DNA from: Truepera radiovictrix DSM 17093
Lineage (GTDB): Bacteria; Deinococcota; Deinococci; Deinococcales; Trueperaceae
Assembly: GCF_000092425.1 (NCBI RefSeq)
Contig: NC_014221.1
Coordinates: forward strand, 2,547,001-2,611,000
DNA length: 64,000 bases
Direction: 5' to 3'
The notes below the pieces were generated by a model. It did no database searches. It saw only the letters and a list, made by a program, of their open reading frames with translations, and had not been told where the DNA came from. Each line of letters starts with the position of its first letter. Position 1 is the first letter of the stretch. The translations under genes and the position numbers were made by a program. This document shows, piece by piece, positions 57,261 through 64,000 of this stretch.

Positions 57261-58469
57261 TTATGCAGGCGCCTGCACGAGCCCCGCGCCCACGTCGAGG
57301 GGGTTAAAACCGGGGGCGAGCGGTTCGTGCGTGGCGCTCGCGATGATCTTGGCGGAGAACGTCGACCACGAAAAGGCGTCTGACCGCTGGAGCGCCTCGG
57401 CGTAGAGCGCCGCGACGCCGGCGGCGTGGGGCGCCGCCATGCTGGTGCCCTGCAAGCTCCGCAGACCGCCTCCTGGCCACGCCGAGACGACCCCGACGCC
57501 GGGCGCCACGACGCTCGGGCGGGTGTTGGAAAAGGGCGCGACCTCGAGCGCCTCGCTGAGCGCCCCTACCGAGATGGCCCCGTCGGCGGCAGCGGGGGGC
57601 GCGGTAAAGATGCGGTAGGGCGGCTCGGAGGGGCGCGCTTTGGCGCCGATGTTGCTCTCGTTACCGGCGGCGGCCACCAAGACGCACGGCGTCTGCAGCT
57701 TGCTGCGCGCCTCCATAAGCTCGACGAGCGCGTCGAACATGCGGACGTTCGCGCGGTAGAGCTCGAGCCCCTGCGAGATGGCCGCGAGCTCCGGCAGGCC
57801 GCGCAGGCGCAGGTCGAGCACGATGTGCGGAAACGAGATGCCGAGCGACATGGAGATCACGTGCGCCCCCTCGTTGATCGCCCAGGTGAGCCCCTTGACG
57901 ACCCCTTCGGTAGTCCCGCTCCCGCTTGTCGTAAGCACCTTGCCGACGAGCAGGCGCGCCACCCCCCGCGCCACCCCGATGCGCCCGCCGGCAGTGTCCT
58001 GACCGCAGAGGGTACCGGCGCAGTGGGTGCCGTGGCCGTTGCCGTCGCCGTCGCCCTCACCCGTAAAGTCGCGCTCGACGAGCGAGAGCCCGCGGAAGGC
58101 CGGGTGCTCCCTGTCGATCCCCGTGTCGAGCACCGCCACCGTCACCCCCGCGCCGTCGTAGGGGCTGACGTCGGCGCGCACCGCCCGGACGCCCCACGTC
58201 ACGGGGGGCGGCGCCGCGACCGCCTCCCCGTCGGTCAGCGGGCGAATAAGCTGCACCGGTACGACGGGGGCGATGCTCGCCACGTCGGGTTCCCGGCGCA
58301 GGGCGTTAAAGTCGGCCGTGCTCAGCGTGTCGATCTCGACGGTGAGGTCGTCGACGCGGGCGTTATCTTTGAGCGCGAAGCTCCCCAAAAAGGGTTCGGC
58401 CAGCGCGGCGCGGGGTTTGTCGATGTCCGGCTGCCGCAGGATGATCTGTTTGAACTCGCTGAGTCTCAT
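57261..58469 (-). CDS. Subtilisin-like serine protease (S8), no signal peptide
   Basis: 402 residues. Catalytic Asp115 (AVLDTGID), His146 (GHGTHCAG) and Ser343 (GTSMAAPHAAG), oxyanion Asn270 (AAGNES). There is an N-terminal prodomain-like region (about 1-95), but no signal peptide, so it is either cytoplasmic or exported unconventionally. An unusual helical insertion lies between residues 212 and 260. GGAGGG precedes the ATG. It lies 41 bp after the TonB-like gene on the same strand and is probably its operon partner. Confidence 0.88.
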   Translation of the reverse strand: MRLSEFKQIILRQPDIDKPRAALAEPFLGSFALKDNARVDDLTVEIDTLSTADFNALRREPDVASIAPVVPVQLIRPLTDGEAVAAPPPVTWGVRAVRADVSPYDGAGVTVAVLDTGIDREHPAFRGLSLVERDFTGEGDGDGNGHGTHCAGTLCGQDTAGGRIGVARGVARLLVGKVLTTSGSGTTEGVVKGLTWAINEGAHVISMSLGISFPHIVLDLRLRGLPELAAISQGLELYRANVRMFDALVELMEARSKLQTPCVLVAAAGNESNIGAKARPSEPPYRIFTAPPAAADGAISVGALSEALEVAPFSNTRPSVVAPGVGVVSAWPGGGLRSLQGTSMAAPHAAGVAALYAEALQRSDAFSWSTFSAKIIASATHEPLAPGFNPLDVGAGLVQAPA

Positions 58470-58510
58470 GGCCCTCCGCTCCCCCCTTGAAACAACCTCG
58501 GCAACAACCT

Positions 58511-60583
58511 CTACGGTGCGGCCGCCGCCCCCTCGGGGGCAAAGACGATCCAGTGCCTAAAGGGCGTCAGGTCGACCACCTCGCCCGCGGCGGTGACGAA
58601 CTGAAAGCCGCCGGCGGGCGTCCAGCGCCCCGGTACCGCTCTGCCGCGCACGTAGAGCGTCGCCGCGCCCCCTTCATACGGAAGGTAGAGGCGGTCCTCG
58701 GGGTCGTTCGGGAAGGGGAAGGCGGTCACCTCCGCGACGACCACCGCGTCGACCACGACGGCGTTGCCGGCGGCGTCGGCGGCGTCCTCCCCCGAGCGCA
58801 CCCAGCGGTACTGGTCGACCTCGCTTACGTAGCGAAAGCCGCTCGAGTAGACCGCCGAGAAGGCGACCGTGACCTCCGCGGCCTCCGGCGCGTCCGCCGC
58901 GGGTTGAAAGACGAGGCCGCTCACGGGGCGACCCGGCAGACGCCCCACGGCGCTGCGCAAGTCGGTGCCGGCGGCGAAGGTGCTGTAGGGCGCGTCGCGG
59001 CCCGGCGCTTGGGCGAAGAGCTCACCCTGCGCGAGCGCGTCGACCGTCGGGATCTCCTGCGAGGCGATGCGGCTGACCGTGCTGGGCGCCCCACCGACGT
59101 GCACCAGGGTGCCGTTCATCCGCAGCGCCGCCTCGAGGAAGTAGTCGCGGGCGCTGCGGATGGGGCCCACCTGCGCCGGTTCGCCCTGGGTGTAGACGCT
59201 CATCAGCCGCGTAAGCCCCCCCTCGACGGGCATCTCGAAGACCGCGGTCGCCTCCTGGAGGCCCATCTGCGGGTAACCGGCGTCGGTGTTGTCGAGCAGC
59301 ACCGCGAGCGGCTGCAAGAGGGTGGCGTTAAAGGTCTGCGGCGCCTGAGCGCCCGCGGCCTCGGCCCCGTCGGGGGCGGCGGCGGCCCCCTGGGCGCCGG
59401 CTTGGGCCGCTTCGTCCGCTTGCGCCTGGGTCGTCGCGGGGGCCGCGCCCGCAGCGGGCTCGGGCGCCTGAGCGGCAGAGGGCGCGACCGCAACGCTCAC
59501 CTCGGGGAGCTCGAGCGGGAGCGTCTCGGCGAGCACCGCCGACGGCGCGACCGCGAGCGGCCGCTCGGCGGGGAGCGCCACCGAAACCTCGGGCTGGGGC
59601 ACGGCGGTCGGCAGCGACACGGCAGCGCCCACCGCCGGTTGCGGCAGCGGCGCGGCCTCCGCGACTGTAGCGCTCGCCGCAGGTTGGGGCACGGCGCGCG
59701 CGGGCACCTCGGCGGTGACGCTGGGGAGCGGCACGGGGTCGGCCTCCGCGACCGTGGCGCTCACCGCCGGTTGCGGCAGCGCACGCGAGGCGACCGAGAC
59801 CTGCACCTCCGGCTCGGGGAGCGGGTCGGCGGCGGCGACCTCGGCCGCCGCTGCGGGCTGCGGCACGGCGCGCGAGGCGACCTCGGCGCGCACCTCGGGT
59901 TGCGGCACCGCCACCGCCTCGGCGAGTTCGACCTGCGGCGTGGCGGTGATAAGCCGCGCGGGGGCGACGCTCACCTCCGGGTTCGGCCGCGGGAGGTCGA
60001 TGGCTTCGGCGAGCGGCTGCGGGGCGATCTCCGGGGCGGCGATCTCCGGCAGCGTGGTGCTCGGCGGTCTCGCGGGGAGCTGCGGCAGCGCCTCGGCGAG
60101 GCTCGGCGTCGGCGGCTCGGGCGCGACGACCTCGGGCGCCGGGGCGCTCGGAGGGGGTGCAGGGGCGTCGACCGCTTCAGCCGGAGCGGCTGGGGGCGGG
60201 GCGGCGGTGCGCTCCGGCAACGCCTCTGAGGCCGCTTCGGGGGCCCGCTCGAGCGCCCCCTCCGGCGGCGTCGGCAGCGCGAGCGTCGCCTCACCCGCGG
60301 TCTCGGCGGCGACCTCGGGCCGCGGCGCCTGCGGGGCGGGGGCGTCGACGCTCGGCGCGTCGACCGCCGCGCTCGCCTCCTCGGGGGGGGCGAGCTCGAG
60401 CACCACCACGCGCTCGTCCGGGCGCGGCCCCACGTAGAACCAGGTCACCCCGAGGAGCGCCGCGAGGTGCAGCAGCAGCGACAACAGCAGCGCGCGGCGG
60501 CGCTCGGGGTCGCGCCAGAGGGGGAGGCGGTCGTCTCGGCGGGCGCGCTTGACGAGGACGCGGTGGCGCGATGGGCGCTGCAC
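58511..60583 (-). CDS. TonB-like protein with C-terminal DUF3048 (YerB) domain
   Basis: 690 residues. A basic cytoplasmic tail (1-30) is followed by one TM helix with the SxxxH motif of TonB (Ser35, His39). A long Pro/Ala/Val/Glu-rich region (about 55-405) follows, containing repeated PQPxVxAxVA-type units. From about residue 412 to the end lies a DUF3048 domain (AVLLDNTDAGYPQMGL, then EGGLTRLMSVY, then GPIRSARDYF). No TonB C-terminal domain is present. The gene follows exbB and exbD, so this is presumably an energised periplasm-spanning protein; its target is unknown. Confidence 0.83.
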   Translation of the reverse strand: MQRPSRHRVLVKRARRDDRLPLWRDPERRRALLLSLLLHLAALLGVTWFYVGPRPDERVVVLELAPPEEASAAVDAPSVDAPAPQAPRPEVAAETAGEATLALPTPPEGALERAPEAASEALPERTAAPPPAAPAEAVDAPAPPPSAPAPEVVAPEPPTPSLAEALPQLPARPPSTTLPEIAAPEIAPQPLAEAIDLPRPNPEVSVAPARLITATPQVELAEAVAVPQPEVRAEVASRAVPQPAAAAEVAAADPLPEPEVQVSVASRALPQPAVSATVAEADPVPLPSVTAEVPARAVPQPAASATVAEAAPLPQPAVGAAVSLPTAVPQPEVSVALPAERPLAVAPSAVLAETLPLELPEVSVAVAPSAAQAPEPAAGAAPATTQAQADEAAQAGAQGAAAAPDGAEAAGAQAPQTFNATLLQPLAVLLDNTDAGYPQMGLQEATAVFEMPVEGGLTRLMSVYTQGEPAQVGPIRSARDYFLEAALRMNGTLVHVGGAPSTVSRIASQEIPTVDALAQGELFAQAPGRDAPYSTFAAGTDLRSAVGRLPGRPVSGLVFQPAADAPEAAEVTVAFSAVYSSGFRYVSEVDQYRWVRSGEDAADAAGNAVVVDAVVVAEVTAFPFPNDPEDRLYLPYEGGAATLYVRGRAVPGRWTPAGGFQFVTAAGEVVDLTPFRHWIVFAPEGAAAAP

Positions 60584-60589
60584 GCTTCT

Positions 60590-61000
60590 CTACTCCCCTC
60601 CGGTCGCGATGGCGACGCGTTCGGCGCCCGCCTGACGGATGAGGTCCATCACGCGCACCGAGACCCCGTACTGGATCGTCTGATCGGCGCGCAGCACCAC
60701 GGTGCGGTCGGGCGCCTCGGCGAGCGCCGCGCGCAGCGCGCTCACGAGGTCGCCCTCGCTCACCTCGGCGCCCGCCAAAAAGATGCGCCCGTCTTGCGTG
60801 ATGGTCACCGTCGGTACGTCCGCGGTTTGCGCTTGGGTGGTCTGCGCCTGCGGCAGGTCGACCGGCAGCCCCGACTCGAGGGTGATAAAGGTCGTCGAGA
60901 CCATGAAAAAGATCACCAGCTGAAAGACCACGTCCACCATCGGGGTGAGGTCGAGCCCGGCCCCTTGGGAGAGCGGGCGGGTGCGCCTCAAGCGGCGCAT
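60590..61000 (-). CDS. exbD: ExbD/TolR family proton-channel subunit
   Basis: 136 residues. One TM helix with the essential Asp23 in LTPMVDVVFQLVIFFMVS, then a periplasmic domain. With ExbB it turns proton flow into work on TonB/TolA-type proteins. An AGGAG site precedes the ATG. It is 25 bp downstream of exbB and 6 bp upstream of the TonB-like gene. Confidence 0.9.
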   Translation of the reverse strand: MRRLRRTRPLSQGAGLDLTPMVDVVFQLVIFFMVSTTFITLESGLPVDLPQAQTTQAQTADVPTVTITQDGRIFLAGAEVSEGDLVSALRAALAEAPDRTVVLRADQTIQYGVSVRVMDLIRQAGAERVAIATGGE

Positions 61001-61025
61001 CGGCAGCTCCTAGGCGCGGCGCGCG

Positions 61026-61757
61026 TCATACGCCCCGTTCGACGACGCTCGCGCGCCGCACCCGCTCGCCGGTCTCGTCGACCGGCACCTCGCGCACCTG
61101 CCCCACGCGGCTCCGCACGTCCTCGTACCCGCCCTCGCGCGGGCTCGGTTTGGTCGAGACCGCCTGCGCCACGTTGCCCATGAGCTCCTCGCGGCGGCGC
61201 TCGATCTCGAGCAAAATCCCCTCGACGCGGCTCGAGAGGTACGAGTGGCCGATCACCGCCGGGATGGCGACGATAAGCCCCGCGGCGGTCGTGACGAGCG
61301 CCTGCCCGATGCCGCCCGCTAACGCCGCCGGGTTGCCGGTGCCCTGCTGCGAAATCTCGGCGAACGCGACGATCATCCCCGTCACCGTCCCCAGAAGCCC
61401 CAAGAGCGTGGCGACTTGCGCAATGGTCGCGAGCGGCCTGAGCCCCCGCGTCAGGCGCTGCTCCTCGCCCAAGTACGCCTCCTGAAAGGCCGCTTCGACC
61501 GCCGGACGCCCGTAGGGGATGCGCGCCAACGCGGCTTTGAGCACCCGCGCGACGGGGCCGCCGTGGTTGTCGCAGGCGATCATCGCCATCTCGAGGTTGC
61601 GCTCGCGCACGGCGCTGTTAACCCGCGCCATGAGCCGGTCGGCGTCGAGGCGCTCTTTGGAGAGTTTAAAGAGGCGTTCGAAAAAGAGGTAGAGCGCGTA
61701 TAAAGAGACCAGCAAAATGGCGACGAGCACCGGGCCACCACTCAGGAGAAGTTCCAT
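61026..61757 (-). CDS. exbB: ExbB/TolQ family proton-channel subunit
   Basis: 243 residues with three TM helices. The MotA/TolQ/ExbB domain is seen from GLRPLATIAQVATLLGLLGTVTGMI to VTTAAGLIVAIPAVIGHSYL (each read as the classic TM2/TM3 motifs). It forms a pentameric channel around an ExbD dimer. First gene of the operon exbB-exbD-TonB-like-subtilase. The C-terminal cytoplasmic tail is about 40 residues. Confidence 0.9.
   Translation of the reverse strand: MELLLSGGPVLVAILLVSLYALYLFFERLFKLSKERLDADRLMARVNSAVRERNLEMAMIACDNHGGPVARVLKAALARIPYGRPAVEAAFQEAYLGEEQRLTRGLRPLATIAQVATLLGLLGTVTGMIVAFAEISQQGTGNPAALAGGIGQALVTTAAGLIVAIPAVIGHSYLSSRVEGILLEIERRREELMGNVAQAVSTKPSPREGGYEDVRSRVGQVREVPVDETGERVRRASVVERGV

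Positions 61758-62059: not shown

Positions 62060-64000
<1,941 letters not shown>

Follow-up and report, generated by a model that had tools for sequence, protein, structure and literature searches.

The described systems closest to the locus reported here are the Ton system, the Tol-Pal system, a group of motor-linked force transducers with a vWA head, and the Bacillus subtilis protein YerB. In E. coli, Ser16 and His20 of TonB touch Ser34 and Trp38 of ExbB (PMC12215075), and location of tonB in the motor operon is infrequent according to a survey of force transducers (Williams-Jones et al., 2025, PMC12204202). The survey holds that further motor-driven force-transducer systems are still to be found; Deinococcota and DUFs do not appear by name in its main text. 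YerB (PF11258-PF17479, PDB 2PSB) is a lipoprotein with neither shaft nor motor, and its domain, DUF3048, is still of unknown function in a 2026 survey (PMC13068155), the one paper found to name it. No published coupling of DUF3048 to ExbB-ExbD was found in the literature, in agreement with the original prediction that no described system joins the proton-motive force to this domain.

The locus of Truepera radiovictrix shares with the Ton system the conserved motor pore residues, an SxxxH-bearing N-terminal helix, a Pro-rich shaft and inner-membrane anchoring, but it differs in that the transducer gene sits in the motor operon, the head is not TonB_C, and the genome lacks Plug-type receptors. 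With Tol-Pal (TolQ-TolR-TolA) it has in common a transducer encoded beside its motor, NCBIfam scores that lean toward TolQ and TolR while staying below cut-off and, in Atribacterota, a TPR protein upstream of ExbB; the DUF3048 head and the lack of an OmpA/Pal family protein in the T. radiovictrix genome set it apart. The vWA force transducers are likewise motor-linked, with an SHLS-type helix, a novel head and an unknown function, but the head described in the survey is vWA, whereas by Pfam it is only DUF3048 here (Williams-Jones et al., 2025, PMC12204202). The head is shared with YerB by profile, sequence and fold, including all invariant residues, but here the domain is carried on a TonB-like arm beside ExbB-ExbD. 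The best reading of this architecture is a system that would work like a TonB or TolA transducer while belonging neither to TonB (by its head and receptors) nor to Tol-Pal (by Pal).

The window (the whole stretch of DNA analysed, 64,000 nucleotides) lies in a genome that was searched as a single contig of 3,260,398 bases. The features of the locus, in window numbering, are as follows.

61026..61757, minus strand: ExbB/TolQ-like motor subunit, 243 aa (PF01618, 1.2e-30; phmmer to 5sv0_B, 8e-11)
60590..61000, minus strand: ExbD/TolR-like motor subunit, 136 aa (PF02472, 5.4e-33; phmmer to 6tyi_Y, 5.5e-14)
58511..60583, minus strand: TonB-like transducer with a DUF3048 head, 690 aa (PF11258 and PF17479)
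60431..60493, minus strand: N-terminal membrane helix of the transducer, about aa 31-51 (S35xxxH39, read from the sequence)
59315..60406, minus strand: Pro/Ala-rich periplasmic shaft of the transducer, aa 60-423 (by composition)
58946..59314, minus strand: DUF3048 N-terminal domain, aa 424-546 (PF11258, 2.3e-31)
58547..58873, minus strand: DUF3048 C-terminal domain, aa 571-679 (PF17479, 4e-7; AlphaFold2/Foldseek match to 2PSB across the whole domain)
57261..58469, minus strand: S8 subtilase (PF00082, 7.7e-43; D/H/S triad motifs present)

The first three genes form a minus-strand operon (61757-58511) in the order ExbB, ExbD and transducer, with intergenic gaps of 25 and 6 bases, the transducer starting with GTG 6 bases past the ExbD stop. 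An intact subtilase gene follows on the same strand, 41 bases downstream of the transducer, and Pfam matches recovered all four genes as originally predicted. Upstream of the operon lies a phosphoenolpyruvate carboxylase gene (window 62060-63910), the same neighbor being kept in many Trueperaceae (window, L033-L071), with no functional tie to the operon evident. From the other side, a gene for an FtsE-like ABC ATPase is convergent with the operon.

Both motor subunits exceed the cut-offs of PF01618 and PF02472 and belong to the MotA-TolQ-ExbB and ExbD-TolR families. In NCBIfam, the two proteins score somewhat higher as TolQ and TolR than as ExbB and ExbD (for ExbB, 88.9 bits for tolQ vs. 69.8 bits for exbB, both below the equivalog cut-offs), and because neither pair of equivalog cut-offs is reached, the name "Exb" is used by convention. 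The equivalents of E. coli ExbB Ser34, Thr148, Thr181 and Pro190 are retained in the residue alignment, and ExbD keeps the equivalent of the pore residue Asp25 (TPMVD), which bears out the claim of intact key residues, with Leu at the position equivalent to Trp38. An E. coli ExbB sequence served as the ruler, and the same correspondences can be read from the alignment to 5sv0_B. ExbD has one match genome-wide and is therefore the sole ExbD of T. radiovictrix.

The only membrane helix at the N-terminus of the transducer, RRRALLLSLLLHLAALLGVTWFYV, carries S35-LLL-H39 and is preceded by an Arg-rich (inside-positive) sequence. It leads into a shaft of 364 aa containing 28.6% Ala and 19.5% Pro, a Pro-rich periplasmic region of the TonB type, and the predicted combination of the TonB membrane signature SxxxH with a long Pro-rich shaft is thus present. 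Of the SHLS motif, S and H are retained, with V46 and Y50 at the positions of L and the second S, and a profile of the helix gave nothing significant against the TonB and TolA chains in the PDB. "TonB-like" is therefore used here for architecture, contact motif and gene linkage rather than for proven descent. The pattern RRAxxxSxxxH occurs in all motor-linked copies read from Trueperaceae (family f1). In the transducers of a sister family (f4, which we take to be Marinithermaceae, including Marinithermus and Oceanithermus), the His of SxxxH is replaced by Thr or Ser; in the ExbB of this family, 10 of 11 distinct copies have Thr at the Ser34 position, and every copy has Ala at the Trp38 position. 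The joint change at the His and at the ExbB Ser34 position represents a single evolutionary event, yet it fits a physical contact of the helix with ExbB.

The head (residues 424-679) is a complete DUF3048, in which PF11258 (2.3e-31) and PF17479 (4e-7) both exceed the curated cut-offs, and phmmer aligns YerB (2PSB) over transducer residues 419-688 (1.5e-17). An AlphaFold2 model of the head (pLDDT 95) has 2PSB as its sole PDB match at E<=0.001 (Foldseek, E 4e-23), and no further fold relative of DUF3048 was found in the PDB at this threshold. Both Pfam domains and the YerB fold assign the head to the DUF3048/YerB family, with a TonB-like membrane helix instead of the lipoprotein anchor. The strong PF11258 match in the C-terminal part, together with the fold, upholds the prediction that DUF3048 stands in place of the TonB receptor-contact domain. 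A disguised TonB_C was considered for this region and ruled out by the 2PSB-only fold and the lack of a TonB_C match at E<=1. No relatives were found in viral contigs.

All residues that are invariant across 64 DUF3048 homologues are retained in T. radiovictrix, the polar or charged ones being N27, E45, E49, R54, R71, S72, R74 and Y76. Together with the near-invariant H90, R120, H128 and N129, these resemble an active or ligand site, and in Clostridia yerB adjoins the lipid kinase gene dgkA. DUF3048 might accordingly be an enzyme whose substrate is a wall polymer or a lipid-linked precursor, and the motor would position or switch this enzyme rather than pull on a bound target. This explanation is considered unlikely, since the fold has no relative with known activity and since T. 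radiovictrix differs at four otherwise near-invariant positions (S94A, R120Q, H128Y, and N129S), which would be odd for an enzyme.

The partners of the classical systems were searched for in the same genome. Profile searches found no TonB_C at E<=1 and no TonB_2 in T. radiovictrix, nor any TonB_C in the 25 relatives searched; with a single ExbD in the genome, the separate standard TonB that had been named as an argument against the prediction did not appear. The SxxxH helix and the shaft would also suit an ordinary TonB with a diverged C-terminal domain, a reading that is extremely improbable given a complete DUF3048 head with both profiles over cut-off, the 2PSB fold only, and no TonB_C match at E<=1. 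The genome likewise contains no OmpA/Pal family protein and no Plug domain of TonB-dependent receptors. Across Deinococcota, Plug was found in 2/111 genomes, neither of them one in which ExbD was found. The two receptors concerned, at L101 (G076) and L102 (G088), lie in fragmented Trueperaceae genomes and are possible contamination. Three SLH matches are present in T. radiovictrix; in Deinococcus, the outer membrane is tied to the wall by the SLH domain, the tether known for Deinococcota (PMC9388160). According to the genome description of the T. radiovictrix strain, attempts to identify peptidoglycan in it failed (PMC3072082). A Ton-like uptake system, in which DUF3048 would open a non-classical outer-membrane transporter such as an SLH porin, could be proposed because the motor and arm resemble Ton systems, the genome has no other motor of this kind, and SLH proteins exist. 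The absence of Plug from the genome, its rarity across the phylum, and the occurrence of DUF3048 in Firmicutes, Chloroflexota and Patescibacteria with one membrane, where there is no transporter in an outer membrane to open, make this reading improbable, and slightly more so than an enzymatic head.

DUF3048 was found in 43/111 Deinococcota genomes, confined to Trueperaceae (the family of the window) and f4. The order ExbB-ExbD-transducer is kept in 36/37 resolvable loci, the window included (resolvable loci being those not cut inside the gene, and one of the 36 showing ExbD only, at a contig end). The fusion that the original prediction proposed to look for beside ExbB-ExbD across Deinococcota is therefore linked to the motor almost throughout, and because the gene order is kept in dozens of genomes, the arrangement is far beyond chance. 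A second DUF3048 copy at L054 (G080, contig C109), in Trueperaceae, is unlinked to ExbB-ExbD and has the appearance of an exported paralogue; the SxxxH noted in it lies within a probable signal peptide. In about 13 Trueperaceae loci (e.g., L060:3-1187), the other strand carries a LysM/M23 (NlpD/DipM-like) wall hydrolase gene, approximately two genes further downstream.

Deinococcota families without DUF3048, among them presumably Thermaceae, also encode a TonB-like protein after the motor operon. Its helix is of the same type and, where the gene is complete, it ends in an alternative head, a C-terminal domain of about 115 aa with the pattern CAVVVDARGL...SPSPAI.DP.G..VWPD... (L103, L107, L108, L117, L119, and L120). 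This head has no match in Pfam or NCBIfam, and L107, the one searched against the PDB, has none there. One motor thus carries two different heads in Deinococcota, neither of which is TonB_C, and the exchange of the head while motor and helix are kept is an argument for the head determining the target.

The subtilase was also examined in this comparison. Its position on the same strand, 41 bases downstream, could suggest that it is a functional part of the system, processing the transducer for example. This is very unlikely, though slightly less so than a diverged TonB, because the protein has no signal peptide, no in-frame upstream extension that would supply one, and, by phmmer, no homologue in the neighborhood of any other Deinococcota copy, a genome of the same genus included. 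The subtilase, listed in the original prediction alongside the system, is on these grounds regarded as a mere neighbor.

The system is present in Trueperaceae and f4, as its framing in Deinococcota implied, but it is not limited to that phylum, being phylum-wide in Atribacterota too. A scan of named genomes gave at least six loci in Atribacteria where a DUF3048 protein of ~500 aa comes immediately after ExbB-ExbD; in a search of the phylum, DUF3048 was found in 46 of 50 Atribacterota genomes, and ExbD lies within 1.5 kb upstream in 26 of the 30 loci examined, the other four ending at a contig edge. The Atribacterota transducer helices carry SxxxN. Just ahead of ExbB, the operon encodes a large TPR protein with YfiO-like repeats (L131, L132, L135, L136, L155, and L176; its length in L136 is 1,223 aa). 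Some Atribacterota genomes have a second, plain DUF3048 protein of about 315 aa. A Plug receptor occurs in two Atribacteria genomes, in one of them with TonB_C on the same contig, so that Ton and DUF3048 systems may coexist there.

Among the matches listed from Firmicutes, Chloroflexota, Patescibacteria and Riflebacteria, DUF3048 is carried on lipoproteins or plain membrane anchors, and no ExbB-ExbD was found near the loci outside Deinococcota and Atribacterota that were listed and read. In many Clostridia genomes (e.g., L133, L137, and L165), yerB lies beside ybeY as well as dgkA, and it precedes era and recO in many of them, as judged by eye. In the DUF3048 tree, Atribacterota are nearer to Firmicutes, and a single clade of Deinococcota and Atribacterota is weakly rejected (AU p 0.035); the motor tree, which is unrooted and has long branches, differs in placing the DUF3048-linked motors on one side. 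The coupling of DUF3048 to the motor may therefore have arisen twice.

An ExbB-ExbD motor with a TonB-like arm that ends in DUF3048 probably pulls on the cell envelope in an undescribed way. The sequence itself shows the motor, the architecture of the arm, an entire DUF3048 domain and an operon of conserved order, with TonB_C, Plug and OmpA/Pal missing; from this we infer docking of the helix, transmission of force, a wall target and a role in envelope maintenance. ExbB and ExbD would make up an inner-membrane motor driven by protons, and the N-terminal helix of the transducer would dock on the outside of ExbB via S35 and H39, in the manner of TonB and TolA; the Pro/Ala-rich shaft would then span the periplasm, and the DUF3048 head would bind a target that is pushed or pulled by the motor cycles. 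Elsewhere, one-membrane bacteria carry DUF3048 on lipoproteins or on a single membrane anchor; for this reason, the most likely target is part of the cell wall or a protein connecting wall and outer membrane, not a nutrient receptor. That bacteria with one membrane and bacteria with two both use the domain likewise favors the wall or the membrane surface over a receptor in the outer membrane. In these SLH-tethered two-membrane bacteria, the system would then fill the place that Tol-Pal has in Proteobacteria. Points that tell against this reading are the partial SHLS motif, the lack of significant similarity of the helix to TonB and TolA chains, the four altered DUF3048 positions, the single origin of the joint His and Ser34 change, and the failed attempts to identify peptidoglycan in this strain. 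The proton-driven envelope arm, exerting force on a DUF3048-bound target with a role at the wall or where the wall joins the outer membrane, is given a probability of roughly 0.6.

A broader and more tentative proposal, which we would sooner doubt than accept, is that the system is the counterpart of Tol-Pal in SLH-tethered two-membrane Terrabacteria, where it would remodel or tension the link between wall and outer membrane. The wall-facing lipoprotein domain of one-membrane bacteria would thereby have been mounted on an arm, and heads would have been exchanged on one motor in Deinococcota. Few head domains are known on proton-driven transducers of the TonB/TolA type, and DUF3048 adds one. 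The system is widespread in two lineages beyond the range of Tol-Pal, it puts a Terrabacteria-wide orphan domain on a motor, and it offers a tangible way of finding out what YerB does.
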